Shown piece by piece: positions 1-25,070 of a stretch of DNA of 64,000 bases. The position numbers and the translations under genes were made by a program. Below the pieces are notes generated by a model. That model saw nothing but the letters and a program-made list of their open reading frames with translations. It was not told where the DNA came from and searched no databases. Position 1 is the stretch's first letter; every line of letters starts with the position of its first letter. Source of the stretch: Legionella qingyii (GTDB lineage: Bacteria > Pseudomonadota > Gammaproteobacteria > Legionellales > Legionellaceae); assembly GCF_003184185.1 (NCBI RefSeq), contig NZ_QHJG01000004.1, positions 1-64,000 on the forward strand, in the 5' to 3' direction.

Positions 1-78
1 ATGAGGGAGTTTAGATAGACTAAATGACCGAATTAAAAACATTTTTTAACGAAGAGATTGGGATTTTTCGAAGTCCTG
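1..78 (+). repeat. MITE-like palindromic element, copy 1 (cut by window edge)
   Basis: This is the right-hand part of the dispersed element described for 12601-12724. It carries the central segment, the AAAAACATTTTTTAACGAAG arm and the right terminus ending AAGTCCTG, with one base missing in the terminal TTTTCG(T)AAGTCC. The left arm lies outside the window, so its target duplication cannot be tested; the five bases that follow are ATCCT. Confidence 0.85.
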
Positions 79-183
79 ATCCTAATAAAAATTATTGAGT
101 TTTATCATGAAGATAAATAAAAACCAACACATCAACGTATGAGATCCCTCTATAAATGGATACAAAAGAATAATTCTCGTGGA

Positions 184-1560
184 TTATGTCGCATCGATTG
201 CATATGAAGGGGATTCGTCATTGGTAATCCGAAAACTATCATAATCTCGAATGAAGTTTGCTATATGATATGCTAATGAAAAATTAGTATGCTCTCCGAA
301 AATATCATGATAAACACCTCTAGGCGTTTCATCTAATTCAGCGGTACAAGTTTTTAGCAGAATATCTGCATATTTTTTATTTATTTCTCCCCATTTGTCC
401 AATATGGCTTTGCCATTAGCAAGATGAATTTCATCTTTAAAAATACTTAATTTATTGAAATGGTATAAATTACCCATGAGATAAAGGGCAAAAACCCGCG
501 TTTCCATATATTGCATAGGAATAGCATTCAATACCGAGGGAATAAGAAGTTTAAGCATCAGGAATTTGCTATTATCCAAATTGCGAATTACAAACAGTAA
601 ATTCCAGCTAGTGTACAAATGCATCCATTCTTTATACACATAAAATTGACTGACTCTTTTAGGAAGTCGATTAATGATTAAGTTAGGTAACAAGCTGTAT
701 TCGCCCTCCTCTGTTATTGAGCTTTCCTCAGGCAAAACTAAATTTTTAAAAGAATAACCGTGAGAGGGTCTAAGGCATTCTAACAAACGAATAAGCGTAG
801 CCCCTGCAAAAGCATTGTCAGCCGGTTGACCATCCTCCTCATACTTTTCTTCCCAAGTTGCTTCCAAGATATTTAAACTCACATTTTTGACTGAATCATC
901 ATGCATTTCACCTAATGGAGGAGGACAAATCTTGGCATTCCACAGCGCTAATCCATGCTGCTTAATAAACACTTTTGATTTTTTAACAATTTCTTCCTGA
1001 CTAAGTTCCTCATCTCCTAATGCACGAATAAATGCACCTTCAGTAATCACGGGGTCAACAGAAACTAATTTTAGGCTTTTAAAAAGAGAAAAGTTATTTC
1101 TATTCGAACAAAAAAAGAAATTATTGATGGGATTTCCAGGATAATAAGTGTTTCTTTGTTTTGTAGTAAAACTATAGATATCTTCATTCAATGTGAAACT
1201 GTTTACCATAGTCACTGCGAATGCCTCGAATAAACATAATAAATTCAGCTGGATTTGCAGCTGTTCTGACATTTCATTTAACTCTAGATCTGCAATTAAT
1301 TCTTCGTGCTCTATAAAAGCCAGTAACTCGCATATTGGTGGATTGTTTAGCAAACCTTCTTTTACAGACTCAATGAGTCGCTCCAAATCAATAGGTTCTT
1401 CTGTGAGTTTAGCCAAGAAGTTTTTGAACCCTTGATCACGAATTTCAAGTGAATTTAAACTAAAATCATGGAGAGTATTTTTGATAATGGCTGGATTGGA
1501 TTGTTTCTTAAGATATTTCGTTACACGCTCTAAAAATTGTTTTGCTAAAGTCCTTTGCAT
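184..1560 (-). CDS. hypothetical protein, 458 aa
   Basis: I do not recognise this protein. It is a long uninterrupted reading frame opening with ATG at 1560 behind a weak GGA. No signal peptide or clear membrane span is seen; one hydrophobic helix-like stretch lies near residues 105-117. The composition is that of a soluble, mostly helical protein. It ends 70 bp from the stop of the subtilisin-like protease gene start region on the same strand, but nothing links the two functionally. A large orphan soluble protein of this kind in a Legionella-like genome could be a Dot/Icm effector, but no eukaryotic-like domain or clear C-terminal secretion signal was found, so that remains a guess. Confidence 0.75.
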   Translation of the reverse strand: MQRTLAKQFLERVTKYLKKQSNPAIIKNTLHDFSLNSLEIRDQGFKNFLAKLTEEPIDLERLIESVKEGLLNNPPICELLAFIEHEELIADLELNEMSEQLQIQLNLLCLFEAFAVTMVNSFTLNEDIYSFTTKQRNTYYPGNPINNFFFCSNRNNFSLFKSLKLVSVDPVITEGAFIRALGDEELSQEEIVKKSKVFIKQHGLALWNAKICPPPLGEMHDDSVKNVSLNILEATWEEKYEEDGQPADNAFAGATLIRLLECLRPSHGYSFKNLVLPEESSITEEGEYSLLPNLIINRLPKRVSQFYVYKEWMHLYTSWNLLFVIRNLDNSKFLMLKLLIPSVLNAIPMQYMETRVFALYLMGNLYHFNKLSIFKDEIHLANGKAILDKWGEINKKYADILLKTCTAELDETPRGVYHDIFGEHTNFSLAYHIANFIRDYDSFRITNDESPSYAIDAT

Positions 1561-1630
1561 AAAAAATCCATGTATTTGAAAATAACAAAGTATATGTCTT
1601 TAGCAAAAATTTTTAAATAAAAGGGACTCT

Positions 1631-3427
1631 TTAACTATTTTCTCCTTCCTGTGGAGGAACCACAATAGCAAAAGGTTCGCTAGAGCTGCCGTCTATGACT
1701 TTATTTAATAATGTAACTCTTACTAAAACGTTCATTGTTTTACTTTCTGCAGAACATTTTGTTTCATTCGGCTCACGCTTACAGTTTGCAACCTGGTGCA
1801 CTGTATCTATAGGACTGGTATCGATATCAATCACTTTTTGATGTTCCACATCAATAAGGGCTATCTGCAGGTGACTAAGCTTCCATTCGCTCCCTTCTGC
1901 AGTATATCCCACGCGCCGTTCATGAACCAGGGTAACTTTTTGCCCTCTTTTCAATGTAGTTTGGTATTCCCACACTGGCTGTTCTACGGTCAACTCGCTT
2001 TCCACAATATTATTTCTTTGTTGAAATGCTTTTTCCATATTGAGGTAACCCCAACCATACGTTCGATTCCATGCTGAGCCCATAATTTTAGTATGTCCCG
2101 AATTCATTGAACCCGCATCGGTCCAAGTATCCGCACTGTTAATAAGTAACGCCTTGATGGCCATAGGATTCTGAATCCCTGCATCTTGCAATAACAATGC
2201 TGCCGCACCTACATGAGGGGCAGCTGAGCTTGTTCCCCCCATGAGACGATAACCATCTTTATAGTTCATCGCATTAGAATAGACAAAACCATAAATTTTA
2301 GGGTCAGGAGCACACGTCATCGTATCATGGCCAGGGGCAGTTAAATCAGGTTTACGTCTACCAAAAGGTGTAGGACCTCGGCTACTGGTATTCTTTATAT
2401 GATGTTTGGCTCTATCTACAGTTTTTACCGTAGATTCATTTTCAGTGACCAGCGTATTCATATTGGCAATAGTAAGCGCATTATAATTATCACCAGGGAC
2501 TGTTAATGTGGAGGCAAAGGTAAATTGATGCGCTGGCTCTATGTATCCAGCATTCCCTGCTGATTTTACCCAAAGGATTTTTTGAGTATTTACTACATAA
2601 TCCATCACTTTTGCTAGCCCACTCCATTCAGGACAAGCAGGACAATTTAAATCGAGCCGACCATTTCCCATACTGTAATTAATAATGGTAGGTTTCAGTT
2701 CAGCACGATTCAACATCCAATCCAAAGTTTCCATCGTACGCATAATACTTGCAGGATCAGCAGTTTCCTCTCCAGCTAATCCAGATACGATGGCTGAAGC
2801 GCCATAAGCAATCCCTTTATATTTCTCATGATTACTGGCATAAATACAGGCGACGCCTGTTGCATGAGGCTCTTTTACACCATTAATCAGATTAGAATAT
2901 CCAGAACCTACATCTTGGCGCACTACTAATCTTTTACCGGATAAAGCAGAATGCAAAGGATCTACTCCTGTATCGATTATGCCAATAATTCCTTTTTGAC
3001 CAGTATAACCATGGGCCCACCAATTACTCACATTAGGGTAAAAGGATGAGGGTGTCAGTTTTAAAACTTGGGCCGTAACATCCAACTCTGGCATAGCTGC
3101 TGGATGTGAAGAAATTTGTGCTGCTGCATTTAAATTAGCAATGTGATAGAGCAAGGTACGATCTCTGGGAATTTGTATTGCTACTGCAGGCATAAAACCG
3201 AGGTCTTTTACATTTACATTGGGAGTTTTTTTTAACTGTTCAATAAATGGTTCTTTCTCCGAGGCATTATGTAAAAAAACCAGGAGTGATAAAGGAGCAT
3301 GTGAAGAGGATCTGGAATGTTTTAAAGTTTGGAGGACATCAGCATCGATAATGGCTCTTGCCGAAAGAACAGGACTTACAGTAAGTAAAATTATCGCCAG
3401 ATAAGATCTTTTGAATATACGCCACAT
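1631..3427 (-). CDS. secreted subtilisin-like serine protease (peptidase family S8)
   Basis: Residues 1-25 form a signal peptide (basic start, hydrophobic core, cleavage near SARA), so the enzyme is exported. The S8 catalytic triad is visible: Asp152 in GIIDTGVDP, His188 in EPHATGVAC, and Ser400 in GGTSSAAPHV; the oxyanion Asn is N292 in SAGNAG. The His motif is HATGVA rather than the usual HGTHVA, but the His itself is kept. About 125 residues before the catalytic domain could act as a propeptide, and about 130 residues follow it. The ATG at 3427 has GAGGG seven bases upstream. The gene is divergent from a secreted metalloprotease at 3949, so both may contribute to the extracellular proteolysis typical of legionellae. 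Confidence 0.93.
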   Translation of the reverse strand: MWRIFKRSYLAIILLTVSPVLSARAIIDADVLQTLKHSRSSSHAPLSLLVFLHNASEKEPFIEQLKKTPNVNVKDLGFMPAVAIQIPRDRTLLYHIANLNAAAQISSHPAAMPELDVTAQVLKLTPSSFYPNVSNWWAHGYTGQKGIIGIIDTGVDPLHSALSGKRLVVRQDVGSGYSNLINGVKEPHATGVACIYASNHEKYKGIAYGASAIVSGLAGEETADPASIMRTMETLDWMLNRAELKPTIINYSMGNGRLDLNCPACPEWSGLAKVMDYVVNTQKILWVKSAGNAGYIEPAHQFTFASTLTVPGDNYNALTIANMNTLVTENESTVKTVDRAKHHIKNTSSRGPTPFGRRKPDLTAPGHDTMTCAPDPKIYGFVYSNAMNYKDGYRLMGGTSSAAPHVGAAALLLQDAGIQNPMAIKALLINSADTWTDAGSMNSGHTKIMGSAWNRTYGWGYLNMEKAFQQRNNIVESELTVEQPVWEYQTTLKRGQKVTLVHERRVGYTAEGSEWKLSHLQIALIDVEHQKVIDIDTSPIDTVHQVANCKREPNETKCSAESKTMNVLVRVTLLNKVIDGSSSEPFAIVVPPQEGENS

Positions 3428-3653
3428 ACAGCACCCTCATTTTTGAGTTTCAATATAATGGACAAAGCTTACCTTCTCAATTGGTAAATCATTGTTATCA
3501 TCTCAGTAATGAATAGAAGGATTTTAAAGCAAGGAATCGAAAGAAGAAAGCCGTCTTAAGAAAAATATAGTTTATACAATAGGATACTGCTCCTCAGTAA
3601 TAGAGGAACTATCGTGAATTGGTCAGGGCGGGGCCTGGGTATTAGATACCGGT

Positions 3654-3890
3654 ATGTTAAAATTGTTATTGGCTGATTGTGATCAAAATATGAAGATTAT
3701 GGCAGCTCAACAACTGGCAGAACTTGAGAAAAATTGCACGGAACATGGGGCACATTTTGATTTTGCCCCTTTACTCACAGCGTTAAAACAATGCGCTGAC
3801 AATATTGAGGTGTGGAGTGATGAGCAAACCGATAAGTATTGGATTACCACTGCAGGGGGGTGCCAAAAAGCCCTCAAAATTCATTCCTAA
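3654..3890 (+). CDS. small hypothetical protein, possibly a gene remnant, 78 aa
   Basis: A short frame with two Cys-containing helical segments (around ADCDQNM and KQCADNIEVW). There is no convincing ribosome binding site before the ATG, and the frame stays open upstream only to a TGA at 3615, adding a GQGGAW stretch. It may be the tail of a decayed larger gene rather than a functional small protein. No family recognised. Confidence 0.35.
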   Translation: MLKLLLADCDQNMKIMAAQQLAELEKNCTEHGAHFDFAPLLTALKQCADNIEVWSDEQTDKYWITTAGGCQKALKIHS

Positions 3891-3948
3891 TTTGAATACT
3901 GTTCATTCTAATGATACATTTTGTCTCTCAACTACTTAGAGATAAATA

Positions 3949-6162
3949 ATGACAAGGACGCTTTTTTCTTCAGCACTCATACTGTTTTGTTCCATTGCTT
4001 TTGCACAAGATCAAGTGATTGAGGATTTTTTTAAAGATGTGAATCCATCAGCAATATCCACCAAGACGGAAAATAATATACAAGCGAGTCATTTTCGCCT
4101 TGTTGAAATTGACCTCAGCCAACTGTATGCGGAACTGGAAAACGTACCCCATCGAGATGAGTTAAAATCAGGAACTGCATCACAAATTGCCCTTCCTTTG
4201 CCCGATGGAACTACTAAGCTGTATCAAGTTGTCGAAAACAGTACATTACATCCGGAACTCAGTGCAAAATTCCCCACAATTAAAACCTATGATGCTTATG
4301 GGGTTACTGATCCAGGCGATTTCGTCAAACTGGATCTTACTCCGCAGGGATTCCATGCGATGATTCTCAGACCAGGAAAAAGTCCGGTTTTTATTGATCC
4401 CTTAAGAAAAAAAAATACTCAATATTATATTGTTTATAATAAAAAGGACTTTATAACCTCCAAGCACTTGAAATGCGGCGTCCAAAGTCAAAATCAATTT
4501 GCAACCTCGCCTGTTAGTTCAAAACATTTCGCTCGTTTTAATCCTTGCCAACTCAAAAAATACCGCCTAGCCATGGCAGCAACAGCAGAATACACTCAAT
4601 TTCAAGGCGGAACAGTAAACGATGCATTGGGGGCAGAGGCAACCACGATAAACAGAGTGAATGGTGTTTATGAAATTGATATGGCCATTACAATGCAAAT
4701 TATTGCTAATAATAATCTTATTATCTATACAGATCCTAATAATCAGCCCTATACACACGGTGTTCCCGAAAAGATGATCAATGAGAATCAAGAGAATGTG
4801 AATCAAGTTATTGGTGCACCTAATTATGATATAGGCCATGTTGTAGATTCAGCAGGAAGCGGTTATGCCGGGCTAGCCTGTGTTTGTAATGATGAACGTA
4901 AAGCAAGAGGGGTTACTGGTCAAGCCAAGCCTGTAGGAGACCCTTTCGACATTGACTATGTAGCACACGAAATGGGACATCAATTTGGCGCAAATCACGT
5001 ACAAAACAATAGCTGTCAAAGGAATGGACCCACAGCCGTAGAACCTGGAAGTGGTAGCTCCATTATGGGCTATGCTGGAATTTGCGCCCCTAATGTTCAA
5101 AAAAATTCAGATGCTTATTTTAATGGCATTAATCTTCAAGAAATGGGCACTTTTGTCTCCAGTCCCTCGCATACCTGCCCTGTTACAACAGACATTCCTG
5201 ATGCTCCTGTAATTACTAGTGTTAATGCAGGAGTTACAATTCCTGCGCAAACCCCTTTTGCTTTGACTGCATCAGCGACTAAAAGTGGCGGCACTGAAGT
5301 ATTAACCTATACCTGGGAACAAATGAATAATGAAGTCTCTCCCCAGCCTCCAGTCAGCACAGCAACAGGGGGACCCAATTTTAGAAGTTTCTCACCACAA
5401 CCGACAGGCACACGTTTCGTCCCTAATCTCAACGCGCTCAGTAACGGAGGTCCTTTTACATGGGAAGTTTTACCTTCAGTTTCTCGTATTATGAAATTCA
5501 GAGTTTCAGTACGTCGGAATACTCCGGGAGGCTCTTGCAATGCATATACTGATACAACTGTAACAACAACCACTAATGCGGGTCCTTTTATCGTGACCTC
5601 CCCTACTAGCAAAGGCATCAACTGGATAGGTTTATCGCCACAAACAATTACTTGGGATGTTGCCAATACCAATTTTACTCCGGTTAATGCCCAAAATGTA
5701 AACATCCTTTTATCTACTGATGGCGGAAAAACATTTCCCTATACCCTTTTATCCAACATAACAAATAATGGGCACGAAGAAATCTGCGCCCCTAATTTAA
5801 ACACAACTACAGCCCGTATTATGGTGCAGGCGAGCAATGGAACCTTCTTTAATATTTCAAAAAATAATTTCTCAATCATTGCAGCTCCAGCTAAAGCACC
5901 GGTATTGACAGCAGCCGAGCGTAATCCAATGAACACCAGTAAAGCATTTGTCTCATATGCTGAGTGTATTCCCATATCCAATGATGTCTATACAGTGAAT
6001 GGTTTACCTGGAGCAACCGTGAAATTGGATATCAAGAATCATCGCTTCGTCATTGAAAACATCCTGACGCCAAAAAGAATCCCTAAGGTCACGATAACTG
6101 CGACGAATGAAAGCCGCATGAGTCAAACCTCAAACCCAATTACTATTCCCAGTATTTTATAG
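3949..6162 (+). CDS. secreted zinc metalloprotease, reprolysin-like (M12B type metzincin)
   Basis: The protein has an N-terminal signal peptide (about residues 1-19, ending AFAQ), a long propeptide-like region, and a catalytic domain with the metzincin zinc motif HEMGHQFGANH (His340, Glu341, His344, His350) followed by the Met-turn SIMGY (Met373). The C-terminal half (from about residue 420) is rich in Thr, Pro and Asn and looks like two or three immunoglobulin/fibronectin-type beta domains, including a segment with STDGGKTFPY typical of such bacterial metalloproteases. It is predicted to act outside the cell. The outer-membrane barrel gene begins 12 bp after its stop, so the two are probably co-transcribed. 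The exact substrate cannot be told from sequence. Confidence 0.92.
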   Translation: MTRTLFSSALILFCSIAFAQDQVIEDFFKDVNPSAISTKTENNIQASHFRLVEIDLSQLYAELENVPHRDELKSGTASQIALPLPDGTTKLYQVVENSTLHPELSAKFPTIKTYDAYGVTDPGDFVKLDLTPQGFHAMILRPGKSPVFIDPLRKKNTQYYIVYNKKDFITSKHLKCGVQSQNQFATSPVSSKHFARFNPCQLKKYRLAMAATAEYTQFQGGTVNDALGAEATTINRVNGVYEIDMAITMQIIANNNLIIYTDPNNQPYTHGVPEKMINENQENVNQVIGAPNYDIGHVVDSAGSGYAGLACVCNDERKARGVTGQAKPVGDPFDIDYVAHEMGHQFGANHVQNNSCQRNGPTAVEPGSGSSIMGYAGICAPNVQKNSDAYFNGINLQEMGTFVSSPSHTCPVTTDIPDAPVITSVNAGVTIPAQTPFALTASATKSGGTEVLTYTWEQMNNEVSPQPPVSTATGGPNFRSFSPQPTGTRFVPNLNALSNGGPFTWEVLPSVSRIMKFRVSVRRNTPGGSCNAYTDTTVTTTTNAGPFIVTSPTSKGINWIGLSPQTITWDVANTNFTPVNAQNVNILLSTDGGKTFPYTLLSNITNNGHEEICAPNLNTTTARIMVQASNGTFFNISKNNFSIIAAPAKAPVLTAAERNPMNTSKAFVSYAECIPISNDVYTVNGLPGATVKLDIKNHRFVIENILTPKRIPKVTITATNESRMSQTSNPITIPSIL

Positions 6163-6174
6163 AAAAGGCTTAAT

Positions 6175-6876: not shown

Positions 6877-6886
6877 TGTATCTTAA

Positions 6887-6936
6887 TAGTGAGTGCAGGT
6901 CGTATATATTGGACCTACCCCAACCGGCACTCACTA
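6887..6936 (+). terminator. inverted repeat downstream of the metalloprotease/barrel operon
   Basis: TAGTGAGTGC at 6887-6896 pairs perfectly with GCACTCACTA at 6927-6936, with a second small hairpin (AGGTC/GACCT) inside the loop. There is no T tract after it, so it may be a structure protecting the 3' end rather than a classical terminator. Confidence 0.45.
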
Positions 6937-7039
6937 CCACAAATTTTATGATCACTGATCTCAAAACTATAGTACCTGCTTTATAATTATTAATGCCATC
7001 TTGATAAACGTAATCTATTTGACTTAATTTTCAAAAATA

Positions 7040-7163
7040 GAGGACTTATGAAAAAACCCAATCTCTTCGTTAAAAAATTTTTTTAATTCGGTCATTTAGT
7101 CTATCTAAACTCCCTCATTAAAAACATTTTTTACCTAAGCCTTGGGGTTTTTCGTAAGTCCTG
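7040..7163 (-). repeat. MITE-like palindromic element, copy 2
   Basis: A complete 124-bp copy in the opposite orientation to the others. Ends are AGGACTTATGAAAAAACCCA and GGGGTTTTTCGTAAGTCCTG. The first base is G instead of C. The bases AAATA directly precede (7035-7039) and directly follow (7164-7168) the element, a perfect 5-bp target duplication. The rest of the gap 6877-7230 holds only the inverted repeat above and AT-rich sequence. Confidence 0.92.
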
Positions 7164-7230
7164 AAATAGTGCTTCACCAACAAGACAGACTCGACTTAAA
7201 TCGAGCCTGTTTGCCGATTAATAAATTGCT

Positions 7231-7803: not shown

Positions 7804-8326
7804 GCAAACTCCTATTTAAGAATAAATAGTCGCGCATACTATCAACCGGACTTATTTGATGTCAATGTGATTTAAAAATGCCATAAAAAGCGGCTGAAGC
7901 TTTAGCCCCTAGTAAAGAGAGAATGCGAACAAAAAATACACTTCCTTCTAATGTCTGTTGACATTTCATTTTATTTCTTTTGCTCAAAGACAATCTTCGA
8001 CAAATTGAAAATAGCGTTCTATAAAAATTAAATTGACACAGCGAAGGCCAATTTGCTATGTTAACCCAATAATAGATAAAATTTTACCAAACTGCTATCA
8101 ATATGAATCACCGCGATACGAACAAAAGCAATAAGTACCCTGCAGTGTTCACTGCAAAGGTATCGCCATGCCATGATTCATTACCAACAACAATCTCTTC
8201 AGTAGACATTATTATTATTTTGCCCTCTTTACCCTAGAGCGGTTGGCTATTTCTTATTCCCGAACCTCTCTAGGGAGGAACTTTCGGGTAATTGGAATTA
8301 TTGCTTTATTAATACTGGAGGGTATC
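7804..8326. other. 523-bp intergenic region between divergent genes
   Basis: This gap holds the promoter candidate at 8033-8062 and a leader of about 260 bp before the MFS gene. An in-frame TTG at 8243 would add 28 residues to the transporter, but it lacks a ribosome site. No RNA gene or repeat was recognised. Confidence 0.5.
8033..8062 (+). promoter_or_regulatory. sigma-70-like promoter candidate for the MFS gene
   Basis: A perfect TTGACA (8033-8038) is followed, 18 bp later, by TATGTT (8057-8062). It lies about 265 bp upstream of the MFS start codon and would give a long leader. Found by eye only. Confidence 0.4.
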
Positions 8327-10807: not shown

Positions 10808-10837
10808 CTTTTATCAGCCTACTAATAGTCAAATTAT

Positions 10838-10959
10838 CAGAACTTACGAACCCCCCCAAGATCGAGGCAAAAAATGTTTTTAATGAGGGAGTTTAGATAT
10901 ACTAAATGACCGAATTAAAAACATTTTTTAACGAAGAGATTGGGTTTTCGTAAGTCCTG
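10838..10959 (+). repeat. MITE-like palindromic element, copy 3
   Basis: A complete 122-bp copy with ends CAGAACTTACGAA and TTCGTAAGTCCTG. The pentamer ATTAT directly precedes (10833-10837) and follows (10960-10964) it, a perfect target duplication. It lies 67 bp upstream of the DUF4349 gene, so it may sit in or near that gene's promoter. Confidence 0.93.
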
Positions 10960-11026
10960 ATTATTTTACAATTCAAGAAACCTTTGCCACACTTTAGTTG
11001 ATCCATTGTAAAGAGTGGAAATAATA

Positions 11027-12441: not shown

Positions 12442-12600
12442 TGTGCTCAGCGAAACTTTGCAAACGATTTTAAAAATTCAGTAAGTCGTTCAAGGTCTTT
12501 AAACTCATGGCATTATAAATCTTTTAATTATAGGAAATAATCAATTTATTTCTTGGTTTTCCCGCCCCTAAGATTTTGAAGTGTGCGAAGATAATATATT

Positions 12601-12724
12601 CAGGACTTACGAAAAACCCCAAGGTCGAAGCAAAAAATGTTTTTAATGCGGGAGTTTAGATAGACTAAATAACCGAATTAAAAACATTTTTTAACGAAGA
12701 GATTGGAGTTTTTCGTAAGTCCTG
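12601..12724 (+). repeat. MITE-like palindromic element, copy 4 (reference copy)
   Basis: A complete 124-bp copy. The two arms, each about 47 bp, begin with CAGGACTTACGAAAAACCCC on the left and its near complement on the right, and both run inward to an ATTAAAAACATTTTTT segment. The centre contains TTTAGATAGACTAAA, itself a palindrome. The element has no coding capacity. ATATT directly precedes (12596-12600) and follows (12725-12729) it. The stop codon of the pilV-type gene lies one base beyond the right duplication. Confidence 0.95.
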
Positions 12725-12730
12725 ATATTT

Positions 12731-16685: not shown

Positions 16686-19600
16686 ATGGAACGCTCATGG
16701 AAAGATCAGTTGCATCAAAAGCTAATAAAACAATTAGGTATGAAAAAGGGGAAAAAATTTGCTGAAAAATATCTTCCGGCATTATCAATGAGTTATTGTG
16801 AACAACACACCATTGAAGAGGCAATAGAAGATCTCTCGCAAATTGATAATCTGTCACTACAAAACCCATTAACGATTGTTTTTTTTGAATCACCACGTGG
16901 CGAACATCCATTACACATTAAAGTCTATCGATATGGCAGTTCTATTCCGTTATCGGATATCTTACCCATGATTGAGAATATGGGATTACGAACTTATACT
17001 GAAAGACCCTATAAAATTTCGATAGAACCCAACCAGTTTATATGGATTGGTGATTTTAATGTATCTTATTCCTCCCCCAATTTACTCACCCTGGATCAAG
17101 TAAAAAACAATTTTAACGAAGCCTTGATAAAAATAAATGTGGGGCTTTGTGAGAATGATGGGTTTAACAGATTGGTTTTAGGTGCGGGATTATCCTGGCG
17201 TGAAATAGTGATCATTCGTGCTTATGCCAAATATATGCAACAAATTGGATTTCGCTTTAGCCAACAGTATATTGAGAAAACCATTTCCAACTATGCACCC
17301 ATTGTCAAAAAATTAATTGAACTCTTTTGTTTAAAATTTAGCCTGAAACAGAATGCTAAAAATAAAAATAAACGGGTTGAATTGGAGCAAGAAATTCGAG
17401 CCGATATTGATGCCATTACCATCCTGGATGAAGATCATATCATCCGTTTTTTCTGGTCTCTAATCACAGCAACACTTCGTACAAATTTTTACCAGCTAGA
17501 CGCTGATGGTAACCCCAAAGACTATTTATCATTTAAACTCAATTCAGCCAAAGTACCTGATTTACCGCCCGGACAACCCATGTATGAAATTTTTGTCTAT
17601 TCCACGCGATTTGAGGGCATACATTTGCGCAGCGCAAAAGTTGCTCGTGGTGGTATTCGGTGGTCCGATCGCCCCGAGGACTTTCGTACAGAAGTTCTTG
17701 GTCTTATGAAAGCTCAAAAAGTAAAAAACTCAGTGATTGTACCTTCTGGAGCCAAAGGAGGTTTTATCTTAAAAAAAGCAACTAATATGCTTGATCGAGA
17801 GCAGATAAAACATGAGGTAATTGCGTGTTATCAATCATTCATCAGAGGGTTGCTTGATCTTACAGACAATTTTGAAAATGACCATGTTGTTTCACCCCTG
17901 AATACCATTTGCTATGATGATGCCGACCCCTACCTTGTTGTCGCAGCAGATAAAGGAACTGCCACATTTTCAGATATTGCAAATGACATTGCCAAAGAAT
18001 ACAAATTCTGGCTTGGAGATGCCTTTGCTTCAGGTGGCTCTGCGGGCTATGACCATAAAAAAATGGGGATTACAGCGCGTGGCGCATGGGAGTCCATTAA
18101 ACGGCATTTTCGTGAAATCGATATTAACATTGAGAAACAAGATTTTACGGTTGTTGGCATTGGAGACATGAGTGGGGACGTATTTGGTAATGGTCTAACC
18201 TATACCCACCATTCTCTTTTGATTGCAGCCTTTGATCATCGCCATATATTTCTTGATCCCAATCCTGACGGGTGTAAATCTTTTGAAGAGCGCCAACGCT
18301 TATTTAATTTACCCACTTCATCATGGGAAGATTTCAATCCTCGATTAATTTCCAAAGGTGGTGGTATTTACAAACGTTCAAGCAAGTCCATTACCATTAC
18401 CCCCGAAGTAAAAAAAGTACTTGATATTAATGCAGATTCATTAACGCCCAATGAATTGATTCGAGAAATCTTAAAAGCCCCTGTTGATCTGTTGTTCAAT
18501 GGCGGTATTGGTACTTATGTAAAAGCATCAACTGAATCGAATGCCGATGTAGGTGACAAAACAAATGAATTTTGCCGTGTTAATGGTAATGAGTTGCGCT
18601 GCAAAATTGCGGGCGAAGGCGGTAATCTTGGCTTTACTCAACTTGGAAGAGTCGAATTTGCACTTACAGGTGGTTTGATCAATACCGATTCAATTGATAA
18701 TTCAGCAGGAGTAAATTGCTCAGACCATGAGGTGAATATTAAAATTCTACTCAATAAGGAAATGAATCAAGGAAAACTTACTGAGAAAAAACGCAACCAA
18801 TTGCTTACCAAAATGACGGAGCAAGTAGCCCGACTCGTTTTACAAGATAATTACAATCAAGCGTTGGTTTTAAGTTTTTCTGCGATTAATGCACTCGCTT
18901 ATAGCGGTTTATATCAAGCATACATTAAAGAATTGGAAGGATTGGTGCATTTAGATAGAAACGTGGAATTTCTTCCTGATGATAAACATCTTTTGGAACG
19001 TAAAGCCGCTGGCCAAGGCCTAACGCGCCCTGAATTGTCAATTCTTATGGCTTATACAAAAATTTATATTACGGGTGAATTATTAAAATCTGATTTACCC
19101 GATGACCCCTATTTTGCAACCATACTGGAAACAGGCTTCCCTTCAATGTTGATGAAATCCTATGCCAAATCAATGCAAACCCATCGTTTGCGTCGTGAAA
19201 TTATTGCTACGCAACTCAGTAATCAAATTGTTAATAGCATGGGTATTACCTTTATGTACCGCTTACAAATGGAAACTGGACAATCAGTAGCAGACATTGC
19301 CCGTGCTTATATTATTGCTTCCAAGGCTTATGGGATAGATGAATTACACCAATTAATTGATTCGCTTAATTATAAAGTAACAGTACAAACTCAATATGAA
19401 TTACTTCACCACGTAAGACAATTAATGAATTTGGCATCTCGATGGTTCTTGCACCATAAACGTCTTGCAGGCGGAATTAGCAATAATATTGCCCATTACA
19501 GTCAATCTATAGCCAAACTTGAAGAATCAATTCCTAATTTGATGGCAGGGGTTACGAAAGAATATCTTGATAAAACCGTTATTCAGTTTGTAGACATCGG

Positions 19601-20045
19601 TTTACCCAAAGAGGCTGCAAAAAAGATCGCTGCTACACGTGCTATGTACACCGTGTTAAACGTAGTGGAAGTTGCGACACAAAATAAATTTGACTTGGGA
19701 AGAACTGCCGAAGTTTATTTTAAAGTAGGCAGCAAGTTTAGTCTGGTTTGGTTCCGTGATCAAATTGGTAATGATTCTCGTGAAGGCCATTGGAATAGTC
19801 TGGCACGCTTATCTTTGCGTGATGAATTGGACAATTTGCAACGTCGCCTTACCATTGTCATTGTGATGAACAATCAAAAAGGACTTAATTCGGAGGAACT
19901 GATTACTTATTGGTTCTCAAAAAACCCTTTTATTCAACAGCGATGGGAAAAATTGCTGGAAATGTTACTCGGCAGTTCAAGCATTGATTACACGATTTTC
20001 TTTGTTGCACTACGCGAATTATCAACCCTAATTGCAGTAGAGTAA
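16686..20045 (+). CDS. gdhB: NAD-specific glutamate dehydrogenase, lacking the usual N-terminal region, 1119 aa
   Basis: The enzyme oxidatively deaminates glutamate to 2-oxoglutarate with NAD. The catalytic core is complete: VPSGAKGGF with the conserved Lys357, the nucleotide-binding GIGDMSGDVFGNG, NGGIGTYVK and GEGGNLGFTQ. The bacterial 180-kDa type is about 1600 residues and begins with ACT-like regulatory domains; this protein begins at the segment that normally follows them (ERSWKDQL...). The frame is closed by a TGA 10 bases before the ATG, and only 162 bp separate it from pilE, so the N-terminal third is not simply mis-called. The ribosome site is weak. It may be a truncated or an unregulated form. 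Confidence 0.9.
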   Translation: MERSWKDQLHQKLIKQLGMKKGKKFAEKYLPALSMSYCEQHTIEEAIEDLSQIDNLSLQNPLTIVFFESPRGEHPLHIKVYRYGSSIPLSDILPMIENMGLRTYTERPYKISIEPNQFIWIGDFNVSYSSPNLLTLDQVKNNFNEALIKINVGLCENDGFNRLVLGAGLSWREIVIIRAYAKYMQQIGFRFSQQYIEKTISNYAPIVKKLIELFCLKFSLKQNAKNKNKRVELEQEIRADIDAITILDEDHIIRFFWSLITATLRTNFYQLDADGNPKDYLSFKLNSAKVPDLPPGQPMYEIFVYSTRFEGIHLRSAKVARGGIRWSDRPEDFRTEVLGLMKAQKVKNSVIVPSGAKGGFILKKATNMLDREQIKHEVIACYQSFIRGLLDLTDNFENDHVVSPLNTICYDDADPYLVVAADKGTATFSDIANDIAKEYKFWLGDAFASGGSAGYDHKKMGITARGAWESIKRHFREIDINIEKQDFTVVGIGDMSGDVFGNGLTYTHHSLLIAAFDHRHIFLDPNPDGCKSFEERQRLFNLPTSSWEDFNPRLISKGGGIYKRSSKSITITPEVKKVLDINADSLTPNELIREILKAPVDLLFNGGIGTYVKASTESNADVGDKTNEFCRVNGNELRCKIAGEGGNLGFTQLGRVEFALTGGLINTDSIDNSAGVNCSDHEVNIKILLNKEMNQGKLTEKKRNQLLTKMTEQVARLVLQDNYNQALVLSFSAINALAYSGLYQAYIKELEGLVHLDRNVEFLPDDKHLLERKAAGQGLTRPELSILMAYTKIYITGELLKSDLPDDPYFATILETGFPSMLMKSYAKSMQTHRLRREIIATQLSNQIVNSMGITFMYRLQMETGQSVADIARAYIIASKAYGIDELHQLIDSLNYKVTVQTQYELLHHVRQLMNLASRWFLHHKRLAGGISNNIAHYSQSIAKLEESIPNLMAGVTKEYLDKTVIQFVDIGLPKEAAKKIAATRAMYTVLNVVEVATQNKFDLGRTAEVYFKVGSKFSLVWFRDQIGNDSREGHWNSLARLSLRDELDNLQRRLTIVIVMNNQKGLNSEELITYWFSKNPFIQQRWEKLLEMLLGSSSIDYTIFFVALRELSTLIAVE

Positions 20046-20337
20046 TATAAAATCGTTACAGAAATCATCGCTTGAATATGCGAAGCATCACTGCATTGAG
20101 TTAAGAAAAACTGTAATTCCACTGTAAAAATTAGATTCTCGCCTTCGCGGGAATGGTCTAAATCCTTAATTTAATGGCAGTAGCGTATAGTTAAGTCCAG
20201 GAATCTTTTGCAAGAAAGCCCAATCCACACTGCTCCCCCCTTTTTCGCATGGAAGGTGATTCCCATTGTATTTTTGTATCCGTTGATGATACTTTGTTTG
20301 TGAATTAATTTAATGTTAATGCTTTCAGGAGGTCTTT

Positions 20338-21426
20338 ATGGATGAAGAATATAGAAAACAAGCTAAGTTAAAAATTACAAATGCCAAATATCTGGATCGT
20401 GAAGTTATTACAAAAAAAACTGTAATTGATAAATACCTACAAGGGATTAATTTATTTTTACTCATTGTTAATAAAACATTAAACGATTTTCATGAACTTT
20501 CCGATGCTTATCATGATCTGGCTATCGTTTATTTTAATAGCTCCGAATATGAAAAATCAGCTCAATGTTATCTGGATGCTATTAAACAACTTCTGCAAAC
20601 TCCTCTCAATGATAAAAGTTATAGAAAATTAACCGAGTTGTATATTGATTTAGCCGATGCGTGTTATGAATCGTTAAATCAACCCGCAGGGGATGAGGCA
20701 ATGGCTAATGCCATAAAAGCATTCGGCTGTATTAAAGAAAAAACCTTTGAGGAACAAAATATCGGTGACCCAGTTGTTAATTTCAAGCAATTTCATAGTC
20801 ATTATGAAAAGAAACTCTCAACTGCTTCATATATTGCTTCATCCAGATTTGCTAATCATGAACATCTACTGGGTGAAGGACAATTTGCAAAACAAGAACA
20901 AGCCCTTTTCGAACAGTTTGAAACAATATCAATTCATGAAGTTCAACAAATTGATCACAGTATAGAAAGCATGTTAAGCCAACTCTCCTTATCAGCTGAT
21001 AAACACCCATTTAGCCCAGTTTTAATCAATGAAACACCTGGTGATGGTGCTTATCGTAATATGGCAATGCAGCTTTTAGCACTCGCTAAATCCCAGGTTC
21101 AAAATCAACGTGTAAGAGATACCATTGCAACATATAAACAAGCCATTAAAACATTACAAATGATCAAAGCCCCCCAACAAAGTGATCATCAAATAATTCA
21201 ACATTTGGAAGAACAAATACACTATTTATCGAAGAAACCCATTACCACAAAAACACAATTCCCTGCAACTTCCCCCTCTATACCTCAAGAGAATCAAAGT
21301 TCTATTTTGGTAAGCCAGTCTGGGGCAAGTTTTTTTTATCAATCGTTACCTCAAGAAACAAAAGAAGAATGTTTTGAGAGTTATGATCAAGATGTTGAAA
21401 TGGATAACAACAGAATGAGTATGTAA
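20338..21426 (+). CDS. TPR-like hypothetical protein, 362 aa
   Basis: The start is well defined, with AGGAGG seven bases before the ATG. The sequence is helical and soluble. Segments near residues 55-85 (AYHDLAIVYFNSSEYEKSAQCYLDAI), 100-115 (YIDLADACYESL) and 235-270 resemble tetratricopeptide repeats, which usually mediate protein contacts. The C-terminal 60 residues are Ser/Gln-rich and end in an acidic stretch (EECFESYDQDVEMD), so a Dot/Icm substrate is possible. No family or partner was recognised. The gap before it (20046-20337) holds only AT-rich sequence and one half of a short GC-rich repeat (ATTCTCGCCTTCGCGGGAAT). Confidence 0.75.
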   Translation: MDEEYRKQAKLKITNAKYLDREVITKKTVIDKYLQGINLFLLIVNKTLNDFHELSDAYHDLAIVYFNSSEYEKSAQCYLDAIKQLLQTPLNDKSYRKLTELYIDLADACYESLNQPAGDEAMANAIKAFGCIKEKTFEEQNIGDPVVNFKQFHSHYEKKLSTASYIASSRFANHEHLLGEGQFAKQEQALFEQFETISIHEVQQIDHSIESMLSQLSLSADKHPFSPVLINETPGDGAYRNMAMQLLALAKSQVQNQRVRDTIATYKQAIKTLQMIKAPQQSDHQIIQHLEEQIHYLSKKPITTKTQFPATSPSIPQENQSSILVSQSGASFFYQSLPQETKEECFESYDQDVEMDNNRMSM

Positions 21427-21496
21427 AGAGAATGCTACCTTAACGTTTTGTTATTCTGTGTGCTTATGCCTCATCAGTTGAAGGAGGTCCAATCTT

Positions 21497-21571
21497 TTGC
21501 AACTTATGGATATTCTAAATTTCCTACAGAACTCCCAAAACAGTGTTATGGGAGTTCCTAATTTAAAATGA
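21497..21571 (+). CDS. possible 24-codon small peptide gene
   Basis: A perfect AAGGAGG (21481-21487) lies 9 bases before TTG at 21497, which opens a 24-codon frame ending TGA at 21569 (MQLMDILNFLQNSQNS... then VMGVPNLK); ATG 21506 is in the same frame. A hairpin, GAACTCCCA (21529-21537) with TGGGAGTTC (21549-21557), lies inside it. A leader peptide or chance are both possible. The rest of 21427-21736 is AT-rich with nothing recognised. Confidence 0.3.
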   Translation: MQLMDILNFLQNSQNSVMGVPNLK

Positions 21572-21736
21572 CTTTTTATAGATTGTTATCAAGCATAAAA
21601 ATCATTTAAATTTAGGATAAATCTAAAAAATCCATTTTAGATCAGTCTATAATTTTAAGAGTACAAAATACTATAAAAACAATTTAGTTAGAAACTAAAG
21701 GTATCTCAACAAATCAGGTATAGGAGCTATTCTATT

Positions 21737-22843
21737 ATGAATCAGTATCAGCCTATTCCAGTTCATTGGTTTTTTGATCCATCGATCTATCAACTTGAAA
21801 AAGAATATATTTTTAAGCAAAGCCCCCAATATGTTGGACATCAGCTTATGGTTCCTAACTTAAATGATTATTATGTTTTGAAACGAAGTAATAATACTGA
21901 GATGCTGATTCATCACCAAGATGGGATTAGCCTGCTCTCTAATATTTGTCGGCATCGACAGGCGCTTCTGTTATCCGATTCAGGAAATATAAAAAGAATT
22001 CGCTGCCCAATTCATAGTTGGTCATACAATATCCAGGGTGAATTAATTCATGCACCACAATTTGAACAAATACCCTGTCTTAATTTAAAAAAAGACTACG
22101 TAAGTGAGTGGAATGGACTTCTGTTTAGAGGAAACAATAAAATAGAAGGAGATACAATCGACACTAAAGCATATACCGTATTGGATTTCTCTGATTATGT
22201 ATTCGCTCAATCAAGACATCAATGCCATTCCTTTAACTGGAAAATATTCATGGAAGTATTTTTAGATGATTACCATATACCTTTTTTCCATAATGGATTG
22301 AGAAAATTAGTCGACGTACGAGAACTTGAATGGACGCTTGATGATACCTACTCCATCCAGTATGTAGGTATCCAATCTGATTTAACCAAATCAGGTTCTG
22401 CCAATTTTAAAACCTACCAATACGAATTATTGGCGCAAGCAAAAAACGAGCTACCCAGGTATGGAGCTGTATGGATGGCCTATTACCCAAACATCATGAT
22501 TGAATATTATCCCTATATGTTAGTCATAAGTACTGTTTCTCCAATAAGTATTGAACAATGCATCAATATTGTAGAGTTTTTTCATCCGAAAGATATTTGG
22601 CTTTCTAATCCAAGCTTGTGCGCAGCAGCACAAGCGGCTTATTTAGAAACTGCGCAAGAAGATGAAGAAATATGCCTCAAAATTCATCAAGGTCGCAAAG
22701 GACTTCATGAGCAAGGAGAAGACCAATCAGGCCCCTACCAACCCGTATTGGAAGCAGCACTGCCCACATTTTACAATTTCCTCTTAGAAAAAATAAAAAA
22801 GAAAAATAACGAGGGGCTGTTGACAATCCACCGCGGCACCTAA
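21737..22843 (+). CDS. Rieske non-heme iron oxygenase, alpha-subunit type, 368 aa
   Basis: The N-terminal Rieske domain has the 2Fe-2S ligands Cys71, His73, Cys90 and His93 (CRH ... CPIH). The C-terminal catalytic domain has the mononuclear iron motif DDYHIPFFH (Asp177, His180, His185), and a later acidic residue in ETAQEDEE probably supplies the carboxylate ligand. Enzymes of this type hydroxylate or demethylate aromatic or quaternary-amine substrates in the cytoplasm using electrons from a separate reductase. No ferredoxin or reductase gene lies nearby, so the electron donor must be encoded elsewhere. The substrate is unknown. Confidence 0.9.
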   Translation: MNQYQPIPVHWFFDPSIYQLEKEYIFKQSPQYVGHQLMVPNLNDYYVLKRSNNTEMLIHHQDGISLLSNICRHRQALLLSDSGNIKRIRCPIHSWSYNIQGELIHAPQFEQIPCLNLKKDYVSEWNGLLFRGNNKIEGDTIDTKAYTVLDFSDYVFAQSRHQCHSFNWKIFMEVFLDDYHIPFFHNGLRKLVDVRELEWTLDDTYSIQYVGIQSDLTKSGSANFKTYQYELLAQAKNELPRYGAVWMAYYPNIMIEYYPYMLVISTVSPISIEQCINIVEFFHPKDIWLSNPSLCAAAQAAYLETAQEDEEICLKIHQGRKGLHEQGEDQSGPYQPVLEAALPTFYNFLLEKIKKKNNEGLLTIHRGT

Positions 22844-22880
22844 GCGGGCAAAGAGAATTGTCAACAGCCTCTAATATTTT
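22815..22880 (+). terminator. terminator overlapping the end of the Rieske gene
   Basis: GGCTGTTGACAAT (22815-22827) pairs with ATTGTCAACAGCC (22857-22869), followed by TCTAATATTTT. The upstream arm lies inside the last codons of the gene and the stop codon lies in the loop. An inner CCGC/GCGG pairing may extend the structure. Confidence 0.65.
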
Positions 22881-23139
22881 CCTCAGTTCAATACCTCTGC
22901 TTCATGCACCAAAGCCCTAATTAATTCTTTAACACTAGTGCTCCTGCACAATGGAACAGATTGTCCTGCCACATTGACATAAAATCAGAGTTAATACCCG
23001 AAAAACTTATCAAATGGCTATCTGTTGCTGGAAAATGTTCTGTGATTTTCTTAGAATGTTATTTTGGATTAATGAAGATAGATTTTTGCTCTCTTCAATT
23101 TTTAATAAAACGCCTGGTGCATCAAGTTAGGAGGACGCT

Positions 23140-24132
23140 ATGAAAGCACAAGCTATATCATCTTTTGGTGACCCTTCAGTCTTTGAAATGATTGAGCACC
23201 CCAATCCCCAAATTAAACCCGGCTATGTGCTGATTCGAGTTGTGGCAACTAGCGTAAATCCTGTAGACTGTAAAGTTCGCTCTGGAAAAAACAGCCATAT
23301 TTCCCCTCCTTTTCCTGCAATTTTACATAGTGATGTAGCTGGTATCGTTGAACAAGTTGGTGAAGACGTTACTGAGTTTGCTGTCGGTGATGAAGTCTAT
23401 GGATGTGCTGGTGGTTTTCTTAATGAATCAGGTGCGTTAGCTGAATTTATGCTTGCTGATGCCCAGTTAATTGCGAAAAAACCCCATACCTTGAGTATGG
23501 TTGAAGCCGCTGCCTTACCTCTAGTATCAATCACAGCCTGGGAAGCATTATTTGAAAAAGTTAAAATTAATTCTGGACAAAAAGTATTAATTCATGCTGG
23601 TACAGGAGGAGTTGGACATATTGCGATTCAGCTCGCCAAATGGGCTGGCGCTGAAGTATACACCACTGTATCTTCTTCAGATAAAGCAGATATAGCGAAA
23701 TCACTTGGAGCCAAAGAGACAATTAATTATCGGGTTGAATCAGTTGAAGATTATGTCAACCGACTAACCAATGGTAAGGGTTTTGACATAGTATTTGATA
23801 CCATCGGTGGAGAAAATCTCGACAAATCATTAGCTGCTGTTGCCATGTATGGAAACGTAATCAGCATTCAGGCAGCCTCCAACCATGATCTTTCACCTTT
23901 ACATACTAAATCGGCCAGTTTACATGCAGTGTTTATGCTATTGCCATTATTACGTAACATACAACGTGAACGGCATGGCAAGATTCTAAAAGAGATCGCG
24001 ATGCTAGCAGATGAAGGTTATTTAAAACCGCTCATTGACCCGCATCTTTTTTATTTCGAGAACATTGATAAAGCTCATACATTATTAGAATCAGGAAAAG
24101 CGGTAGGAAAAATTGTAGTTCAGGCTTATTAA
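23140..24132 (+). CDS. NADPH:quinone oxidoreductase-like, medium-chain dehydrogenase/reductase, 330 aa
   Basis: The GroES-like N-terminal domain (VLIRVVATSVNPVDCK) and the Rossmann fold with GTGGVG at residues 154-159 mark this as a zinc-independent quinone oxidoreductase of the MDR superfamily. The GVGHIAIQLAKWAGAEVY segment and the later FDIVFDTIGGE are typical. It would reduce quinones or activated enones with NADPH in the cytoplasm. ATG 23140 is preceded by AGGAGG. The gene stands alone after the Rieske gene, with no evidence that the two act together. The gap before it holds only the terminator. Confidence 0.9.
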   Translation: MKAQAISSFGDPSVFEMIEHPNPQIKPGYVLIRVVATSVNPVDCKVRSGKNSHISPPFPAILHSDVAGIVEQVGEDVTEFAVGDEVYGCAGGFLNESGALAEFMLADAQLIAKKPHTLSMVEAAALPLVSITAWEALFEKVKINSGQKVLIHAGTGGVGHIAIQLAKWAGAEVYTTVSSSDKADIAKSLGAKETINYRVESVEDYVNRLTNGKGFDIVFDTIGGENLDKSLAAVAMYGNVISIQAASNHDLSPLHTKSASLHAVFMLLPLLRNIQRERHGKILKEIAMLADEGYLKPLIDPHLFYFENIDKAHTLLESGKAVGKIVVQAY

Positions 24133-24147
24133 TTCTGTCTTATTAAC

Positions 24148-24216
24148 GCCATAACCCGGGAATCCAACTGATTACACCCGGGTTTCGCTGTGCTACGCCC
24201 AGGCTAGGATTTTGGA
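24148..24216. repeat. REP-like GC-rich intergenic repeat
   Basis: Contains AACCCGGGAATCC, ACACCCGGGTTTCGCTGTGC and GCCCAGGCTA. It shares the GGGTT-CGCTGCGC and CCCAGGCTA words with the repeats at 39050 and 48308. It lies between the 3' ends of convergent genes. Confidence 0.6.
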
Positions 24217-24234
24217 GGTTGAAGCAAATTTTTA

Positions 24235-24358
24235 CAGGACTTACGCCCCTAAAAAAATCGAAGCAAAAAATGTTTTTAATGAGAGAGTTTAGATAAACTA
24301 AATGATCGAATTAAAAACATTTTTTAACGAAGAGATTGAGTTTTTTTCGTAAGTCCTG
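24235..24358 (+). repeat. MITE-like palindromic element, copy 5, overlapping a coding end
   Basis: A complete 124-bp copy with ends CAGGACTTACG and CGTAAGTCCTG. TTTTA directly precedes (24230-24234) and follows (24359-24363) it. Its right arm, read on the minus strand, forms the last codons and the stop of the CysZ-like gene. Confidence 0.95.
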
Positions 24359-25070
24359 TTTTATTGCGTTCACAGTAGAGAATGGTGCTTGCTATCACCG
24401 CTGCAGGCATGGCCAATATATTTAAGATGGGGATAAAACTGGCTAGATTTATAGAAAAACCCAATCCAAGTGAACACATTTTATTACGAGCAATTTTTCT
24501 ACGCATTTCTTTGAAGCTAACAAGGTTATTGTCCATAGCAAAATCTTGGTATTGAATACTTAGAATCCAAGCATTAAAAATAAACCACAAAAAAGGATAA
24601 ACAGGCTGTAGAAATGGTACAAAAAATAAAATACCTATAATTAAAAAGCGTGGTAAGAAATAGCCAAGAAATTCACATTGACGTTTTACACTACGAACTA
24701 TGACTTCATAAAATGTTGAAGGGGGAATGATGCTTCCAAAAAGCAGATTTTGTGTTTTTTCTGCTAGCAGGCCATTTAGAGGTGCTGCAATTAAATTGAA
24801 AAAAACCGTAAATAAAGATAGAAACATTAAGAAAAAACTGAGAATAAATATAACAAAAAAAATACTGCTAAAAAAACTTAACCAGGAAGGTAACTTATCA
24901 AGATAATGGTAAACATAGGGCAACAAATAGTGGTAGATAAGATAAAACAAGCCGGAAAACATAATAAAATTAATTGCTAAAGGCAATAGGATAAAACGTC
25001 TTAATCCATGAGTAGAAAGATGACGAATACCTCGTAGCATATAACCCATACCATGAAAAAAATCCCTCAT
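24324..25070 (-). CDS. cysZ: CysZ/EI24 family integral membrane protein, 248 aa
   Basis: Several long hydrophobic segments, and motifs of the CysZ (EI24) family: the start FFHGMGYMLRGIRHLSTHGLRR, NLIAAPLNGLLAEK, and SIQYQDFAMDN. CysZ is an inner-membrane sulfate permease feeding cysteine synthesis; the assignment is by family resemblance. The last 11 residues (TGLTKKTQSLR) and the stop codon are encoded by the inserted MITE-like element at 24235-24358, so the native C-terminus has been replaced. Whether the altered tail matters is unknown; the membrane core is intact. Confidence 0.85.
   Translation of the reverse strand: MRDFFHGMGYMLRGIRHLSTHGLRRFILLPLAINFIMFSGLFYLIYHYLLPYVYHYLDKLPSWLSFFSSIFFVIFILSFFLMFLSLFTVFFNLIAAPLNGLLAEKTQNLLFGSIIPPSTFYEVIVRSVKRQCEFLGYFLPRFLIIGILFFVPFLQPVYPFLWFIFNAWILSIQYQDFAMDNNLVSFKEMRRKIARNKMCSLGLGFSINLASFIPILNILAMPAAVIASTILYCERNKTGLTKKTQSLR

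Follow-up and report, generated by a model that had tools for sequence, protein, structure and literature searches.

Known MITEs and the Legionella qingyii repeat

Miniature inverted-repeat transposable elements (MITEs) and IS701 elements, a family of insertion sequences (IS), are already known. Here we describe a near-palindromic repeat of 122-124 bp in a 64,000-nt stretch of the Legionella qingyii genome (contig NZ_QHJG01000004.1, positions 1 to 64,000; hereafter, the window), and conclude with considerable confidence that it is a real MITE with CAGGACTTACG ends read by a trans-acting IS701-family transposase (NF049921) and with a conserved core between exchangeable tips. Genomes and loci are denoted by G and L numbers, respectively.

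Coxiella burnetii belongs to the same order as Legionella. Its QMITE1 and QMITE2 families are hairpin-form MITEs of 300-400 and 150-190 bp, with duplications of 2-3 and 7-11 nt (PMC5896051; cited, like the other papers below, from excerpts). Compared by description, they are similar to the Legionella repeat in the hairpin form, but are larger and do not have 5-bp duplications. MITEPsy1 of Pseudomonas syringae, which moves in vivo and has relatives in several bacteria, is 100 nt long, with 18-nt inverted repeats and a 4-nt duplication, CTAG or YTAA (PMC3189936). MITEAba12, a 113-bp element, has terminal inverted repeats (TIRs) that match several related IS, as is the case for the repeat described here, but differs in its 9-bp duplications; the excerpt of its source reports no core common to unrelated TIR families (PMC6382973). 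In a limited search of openly licensed PMC papers, we found no description of the repeat in Legionella, no relevant paper with its end motif or the core strings, no IS701 MITE paper that covers it, and, in the excerpts covered (including those of PMC3733652 and PMC10969869), no report of a core common to unrelated TIRs.

Repeat copies in the window

The window contains the following copies, target-site duplications (TSDs) and terminal arms, the arms being given for the 12601 copy that served as the search reference.

1-78, plus strand: cut MITE copy (right part), ending in CGAAGTCCTG at 78; cut by the window edge; not present at the orthologous place in G011
7040-7163, minus strand: complete MITE copy, 124 bp, TSD AAATA
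7035-7039 and 7164-7168: target duplication AAATA
10838-10959, plus strand: complete MITE copy, 122 bp, TSD ATTAT
10833-10837 and 10960-10964: target duplication ATTAT
12601-12724, plus strand: complete MITE copy, 124 bp, TSD ATATT
12596-12600 and 12725-12729: target duplication ATATT
12601-12622, plus strand: left terminal arm of the 12601 copy; the first 11 nt, CAGGACTTACG, equal the ends of the IS701-type parent
12703-12724, minus strand: right terminal arm of the 12601 copy, ending in CGTAAGTCCTG
24235-24358, plus strand: complete MITE copy, 124 bp, TSD TTTTA
24230-24234 and 24359-24363: target duplication TTTTA

The coordinates of these near-palindromes and the perfect 5-bp direct repeats at all four complete copies agree with an earlier reading of the window from its letters (the sequence-only reading). 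That reading had all the arms ending in CAGGACTTACGAAAAACCCC, which is not the case: the left end is GAGGACTTATG in the 7040 copy (plus strand) and CAGAACTTACG in the 10838 copy. The complete copies are 88-94% identical to each other, and a 20-nt arm pattern (up to 3 mismatches) matches the window six times, whereas 100 shuffles gave a mean of 0.00. Nothing else in the window qualified as a copy: an unfiltered covariance-model scan recovered all four complete copies and, of the cut one, positions 1-33, and the remaining matches, all at 20.0 bits or less, are taken for unrelated hairpins.

To identify unoccupied sites, the window flanks and one target copy were joined and aligned to relatives. 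In G011, the closest relative reached (in the first 26 kb, the long aligned blocks have 89-93% identity, except for one of 77%), the 10838 site is cleanly unoccupied, with a one-base difference in the target; it is also unoccupied in G046, G037 and G026, with further small left-side indels or a shorter match. The 12601 site is unoccupied in G011, next to a weakly similar left flank, and in G046, where 6 bp adjoining the target are also gone. The 7040 site is unoccupied in G011, again with a weak left flank, and uninformative in G046 and G037. At the 24235 site, G046 and G026 have no insertion, whereas G011 has it (L048), with identical TTTTA flanks. Unoccupied counterparts therefore exist for all four complete copies and, judging from the occupancy of the sites in G011, three of these copies would post-date the split from this relative or have been lost there, whereas one would be older. 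The repeat combines the features by which MITEs are recognized, namely, terminal inverted repeats, a short (122-124 bp, with MITEs spanning about 50-600 bp) non-coding sequence, TSDs, dispersed insertions with unoccupied counterparts, and ends in common with an autonomous element.

Flanking repeats were counted for a non-redundant set of 82 Legionellales copies with at least 18 of the 22 terminal positions conserved (46 of 128 matches fell below this threshold and were dropped). Exact 5-bp repeats flank 47 copies, whereas exact repeats of 3, 4, 6, 7 and 8 bp were found in 0, 2, 0, 1 and 0 copies, respectively. The A/T-only duplications reported previously hold for the four window copies, but were rejected as a general rule because only 14 of the 47 exact repeats consist of A and T alone; with an overall A+T content of 80%, they are a reflection of an A/T-rich target. 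The target preference, T.A.WNNNW.T.A, is symmetrical about the repeat centre (chi-square of 35.0 at position +4, on an assumed background of 72% A+T), and the 5-bp duplications speak for a DDE enzyme. The gene context of the 82 copies (33 tandem, 23 divergent, 15 convergent, 9 within open reading frames and 2 at an edge) roughly tracks the available intergenic space.

A probable IS701-type parent

Perfect 21-bp end matches in some relatives led to 14 retrieved stretches, 4 of which (G015, G016, G022 and G081) are elements of 1180-1181 bp with CAGGACTTACG...CGTAAGTCCTG ends and one transposase frame. IS of 1157-1181 bp with CAGGACTTACG ends are present in G015, G016, G017, G022, G023, G058 and G081, and all seven genomes score above the cut-off of 250 bits for the IS701-family profile NF049921 of NCBIfam, to which the enzyme was first assigned at 355.5 and 373.9 bits. 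Related genomes thus contain an IS with the same termini, for which the sequence-only reading had no candidate, and its proposal of a MITE mobilized in trans finds support in this autonomous element, the unoccupied sites and the 5-bp repeats. Residues D58, D59, D145, E252 and K259 (acidic residues and a C-terminal E...K region) are invariant across 8 transposase sequences and probably have catalytic roles. Exact 5-bp repeats flank two of the six distinct IS sites, L098/L099 (one site) and L100.

Homologues with YAGGACTTACG ends are found in Planktothrix (annotated as ISPlag1), Paraburkholderia and Moraxella, with the 5-bp repeats TTCAA, ACCTC and GAATA (loci L149, L152 and L153); an Acinetobacter homologue (L150) has the same ends and a 4-bp match, and a Nodularia homologue has the ends and no repeat. 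The MITE shares the YAGGACTTACG ends and 5-bp duplications of these NF049921/ISPlag1-type elements but, unlike them, contains no transposase gene. Classical IS701 elements make 4-bp duplications, are 1400-1550 bp long and have ends ---YACT-Y (PMC2266710), whereas the parent clade is shorter and duplicates 5 bp instead of 4; because of the 5-bp duplications at L098/L099, L100, L149, L152 and L153, the parent is assigned to the NF049921 clade rather than to classical IS701. ISAba11 has 5-bp direct repeats as well (TATAG and ATTTA; PMC7885321), and its likeness to the parent, judged by description, consists in these repeats and possibly in the Acinetobacter homologue, the transposase of which is 44.3% identical to that of the CAGGACTTACG-ended IS.

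Among 189 relatives, 41 have an NF049921 match at E<=1e-20, 30 of them above the cut-off; the MITE search gave a match of any kind, down to short end matches and IS ends, in at least 47. G017 and G058 were the only two seen to combine an IS of NF049921 type with a full-length MITE match. Judging from stop counts, the NF049921 copies in G004, G018 and G100 are degenerate. Among the candidate parents, a pair of CAGGACTTACG ends about 1.7 kb apart in G003 (L071) was rejected because its frames, read without a profile search, are unlike a transposase, and 22 of the 30 NF049921 loci were rejected for having no paired CAGGACTTACG-like ends. The ends of L102 (G069, 26% identity) are TAGGACTTACG, and a 5-bp repeat flanks it.

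A covarying hairpin core

Between the arms, the Legionellales copies form a hairpin, the parts of which in the 12601 copy are listed here.

12623-12631, plus strand: left conserved unpaired motif GGTCGAAGC (family: RAGGC)
12632-12647, plus strand: covarying stem 2, 5' side; 15 of 16 pairs changed on both sides, 93.1% of cells paired
12650-12676, plus strand: apical part GGGAGTTTA...TAAATAACCGA (family: GGAGTTTAC...GTAAATGA)
12677-12692, plus strand: covarying stem 2, 3' side
12693-12702, plus strand: right conserved unpaired motif AACGAAGAGA (family: AACGNNG)

Covariation was assessed in an alignment (A2) of 40 diverse Legionellales copies (39 of the 82 were removed as redundant and, of the 43 kept, three more were left out). 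In the 45-pair hairpin, 89.7% of the cells are paired, and 145 cells are changed on both sides, compared to 35.9 in shuffles; sliding the stem partners destroys this signal. The flanking unpaired motifs are more conserved than the stem between them, with mean majorities of 0.89 and 0.91 versus 0.69 in the middle of stem 2. Because G-T and A-C mismatches are equally frequent (11 versus 12 in stem 2, 20 versus 22 in the inner arms), the Legionellales copies appear to bear no mark of one RNA strand. The structure model matches nothing in 13 IS loci, so that the parent IS gave no sign of the core. A search of the window against Rfam gave no match at the gathering score and, at the element, only sub-threshold hairpin matches; in a further Rfam search, the sole match above gathering was a tRNA outside the element. 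In G003, an IS701-coat subfamily (L026, L029, L032, L038 and L075) has another apical loop, similar to CCGATAGTATA...TAATAC.CGAGG, with the same flanking loop motifs.

The core in other Pseudomonadota

The structure model has matches in at least 60 of 369 genomes of the class of the window organism, Legionellales included; these genome counts are lower bounds, as 2-40 candidates per genome were scored at first look. Among the first 20 matches read, 4 have YAGGACTTACG-like ends, 1 has the related GAGGGCTGACG end and 15 have unrelated outer arms, with a common layout of RAGGC, a stem, an apex like GGAGTTTAC-loop-GTAAATGA, the complementary stem and AACGNNG. A strict core pattern matches 28 of the 58 class-search loci examined (L192 is doubtful). 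Of the other 30, 29 match the sequence-only model at E<0.001; by reading, 27 have a variant core such as GCGCAGTTTAC and 3 (L207-L209) have none. The apex pattern was found in 14 of 398 Pseudomonadota genomes, and its reversed control gave 0 matches in every genome listed. There was no match in the phage collection, no match to a P. syringae core in the E. coli genomes and no match among the plasmids searched for the GTAACTACTCAG coat. The 2.0-Mb genome G580 contains 161 exact core-apex matches, and in the nine copies read there (L242, L251, L258 and L309-L314), some of them truncated where a contig ends, the arms are of the GTAACTACTCAG type or similar.

In a MAFFT alignment (A5) of 35 cores, 8 from Legionellales and 27 from elsewhere, with five short-stem rows left out, 96.1% of the cells pair and 141 cells are changed on both sides, compared to 41.0 in shuffles. 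Constancy reaches 97-100% at the positions of GGAG, TGA, AAC and the final G. Outside Legionellales, G-T mismatches outnumber A-C mismatches, 17 versus 6 (one-sided p of 0.017, on related rows). When the sequence-only Legionellales model was run against 53 loci with other coats, it gave 31 matches at E values of up to 1, including 22 (in 21 loci) with E below 0.001; because all matches are confined to model positions 13-112 of 124, these 21 loci match without the 11-nt tips.

Different tips on the same core

Duplication length is specific to the coat. The core-bearing MITEs of G314 have GAGACCTTTGCACGA ends and 5-bp repeats in 5 of the 5 counted; the same genome contains a 1204-bp IS that is GAGACCTTTGCACGA-ended, is flanked by a 5-bp repeat and codes for a transposase of the IS5 family (NF033581, 267.5 bits, cut-off 140), and 7 of 8 GAGACCTTTGCACGA-ended elements examined have a 5-bp repeat. 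Two core subtypes, one of them Legionella-like, lie under identical GAGACCTTTGCACGA ends in G314 (L278 and L285). The CAGGCYGTTG coat (G653 and G276), the search for which gave 86 matching places, with loci for 30, has 4-bp repeats in 9 of 10 elements examined and in 6 of 6 in a stricter core count. By reading, all ten contain the core or a variant; L329, L332 and L338 are interrupted by extra sequence, and L296 has an altered left motif. The 4-bp YTAR repeats of this coat resemble the 4-nt duplication of MITEPsy1 as described; MITEPsy1 and its relatives may belong to the core family. The GTRRCTRYTCAG coat has 8-bp repeats in its 152-bp form (L187, L190 and L252) and none in 9 of the 11 pairings counted, and the GAGGGTGT..ACAAA coat has 3 bp in the one case counted; the ends of the latter resemble those of ISPsy19, which belongs to the IS5 family and has repeats of 3 nt (PMC3189936).

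In G653, three copies (L237, L257 and L295) have GGGCGCCTCT tips and two (L250 and L297) have CAGGCCGTTG tips, yet from roughly base ten towards the centre their arms and cores are nearly identical. Within a single genome, one element carries two kinds of tips.

Gene neighbourhood, carriers and unusual copies

The 24235 copy overlaps a gene of the CysZ/EI24 family (24324-25070, minus strand). The repeat has no coding capacity of its own, as stated in the earlier reading, but here it gives the neighbouring gene its stop and the last ~10-11 codons, rewriting the C-terminus of the protein; in G046 and G026, this protein has different, slightly shorter tails. Genes for a reprolysin-like metallopeptidase (3949-6162) and a subtilase-family protein (1631-3427) lie near the first copies. 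Just upstream of the 12601 site, relatives (G011/G046) have about 1 kb of extra DNA that is missing from window positions 12520-12600.

Named carriers are L. adelaidensis, L. waltersii and two metagenome-assembled genomes. A 20-mer scan yielded 12 stretches, among which those from Shewanella (3), Lachnospiraceae, Parcubacteria and WB5_3A_111 were rejected as chance matches that align only over the 20-mer. L073 (G113:C18:50500-52800) is a tandem array of about five 120-bp MITE units, all but the last without the right tip; serial transposition, suggested by the 5-bp spacing, was rejected in favour of tandem amplification because these units lack that tip. At ~7760-7882 of L005, the right half of a MITE is fused directly to a GC-rich, terminator-like hairpin, and the left half is missing. 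L086 (G107) contains, at 1788-1859, a shortened, 72-bp version, in which the CAGGACTTACG ends remain and the core is mostly gone.

A proposed MITE superfamily with exchangeable tips

The elements described here can be read as a putative MITE superfamily with one core and exchangeable tips. The window MITE is very likely mobilized by a borrowed enzyme of the IS701 type, as its ends and duplications suggest. The NF049921 transposase of the ~1.18-kb IS would recognize the CAGGACTTACG ends in trans and insert the MITE at A/T-rich, weakly palindromic sites, producing 5-bp duplications. The core comprises the covarying stem 2 and the apical hairpin, with the invariant unpaired motifs RAGGC/AACGNNG and GGAG/TGA. 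The tips would be exchangeable, each selecting the transposase, while the hairpin core, carried along under selection, would most likely be kept as folded DNA. The palindromic form would allow a tip acquired on one side to be transferred to the opposite side, with one arm as template for the other, and such templating would account for the strand-neutral covariation as well. As the conserved core is kept with unrelated tips, the element would work as a module. The broader proposal, that the window MITE is the Legionellales branch of a family in which a selected ~70-nt hairpin core swaps its terminal ~10-20 bp to suit whatever IS is at hand, thereby changing from one transposase family to another (IS701-type, IS5-type and others) and from one duplication length to another, we hold with belief and doubt in roughly equal measure. 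On this proposal, a host or transposition factor would read the folded core, as its invariant asymmetric loops suggest.

Several observations weigh against these conclusions. Of the 82 Legionellales copies, 35 have no perfect 5-bp repeat; likewise, no exact repeat flanks four of the six distinct IS sites, with L097 matching at 4 of 5 positions and three not matching at all, and the GGGCGCCTCT tip has a flanking repeat in only one of three copies (L257). The similarity between the MITE and the IS is confined to about the outer 20 bp. No NF049921 match (E<=1e-20) was found in the MITE-rich genomes G001, G002, G004, G011, G038, G111 and G113, save for degenerate ones in G004; the one checked (L118) has no CAGGACTTACG ends. 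With no intact NF049921 IS in these seven genomes, no mobilizer was found beside their MITEs, and the MITE looks to be mostly an orphan today, with the proviso that drafts lose repeats. The other-coat loci were found via the core, so that their core similarity is partly selected and amounts to support, not proof. On an ungapped criterion, 13 of 56 core copies have no outer palindrome, and in local alignment the arms of 8 of 30 pattern-found loci do not score above 99% of shuffles (22 do). Finally, G361 contains core-less MITEs with CAGGACTTACG ends (L207-L209) next to the core-bearing L173 and L206. These core-less elements are 101 bp long, with an unrelated middle (GGCGGTTAGAGTATTTTTTGGCG...). 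The core is therefore not needed for spread and, because MITEs with the same ends spread without it, any benefit it confers would be quantitative or of another kind.

Among the alternatives, the core could be a functional structured RNA, such as a processed hairpin, a terminator or a small RNA (sRNA), hitch-hiking on several MITE families. Covariation with invariant internal loops is RNA-like, G-T exceeds A-C outside Legionellales, convergent contexts account for 15 of 71 intergenic copies versus 13% expected, and the QMITE families of Coxiella give rise to sRNAs (PMC5896051). The strand neutrality of the Legionellales stem, a gene context that roughly follows the available intergenic space and the lack of an Rfam family at the gathering score at the element speak against an RNA, and we consider this explanation unlikely.

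We find it decidedly unlikely that the repeat is an ordinary type-I MITE, that is, an internally deleted IS701 element with a functionless leftover core, the palindrome of which is maintained through template switching between the arms. MITEs have two recognized origins, one of them the internal deletion of a parent (PMC6382973), and the equality of G-T and A-C mismatches in Legionellales fits symmetry repair at the DNA level. However, the structure model matches nothing in the IS loci, the same core is found with unrelated ends, and the unpaired motifs, although asymmetric and therefore expected to be erased by symmetry repair, are almost invariant, which suggests selection on the core.

Alternatively, several unrelated MITEs might each have received the core as a small mobile hairpin of a REP/RAYT-like or comparable kind. 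REP/RAYT elements are marked by a GTAG or CGTC tag and a tyrosine transposase. The presence of one core under many coats and the coexistence of core-less and core-bearing MITEs with the same ends in G361 are compatible with such insertion, and REPs and tyrosine-transposase inverted repeats can be adjoined (PMC3733652); this origin is nevertheless very doubtful, given that the core-less elements of G361 differ across the whole middle, not by a clean insertion, and that the exchange in G653 affects the outermost ~10 bp instead of coinciding with the border of the core. The chance that the repeat is no transposon but spread by site-specific or other recombination, as the tandem array in G113 might suggest, is negligible, this idea being already refuted by the unoccupied sites and at odds with the perfect 5-bp duplications that differ from one window site to the next.

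Implications

MITEs are usually treated as remnants of one IS. If the proposal of a superfamily with one core and exchangeable tips is true, MITEs with a conserved core and with ends exchanged from one transposase family to another would be lineages of their own, which would explain how orphan MITEs survive the loss of their partner and would provide a testable system for the exchange of transposon ends. Small hairpin repeats that have been thought unrelated across genera may then be one family.

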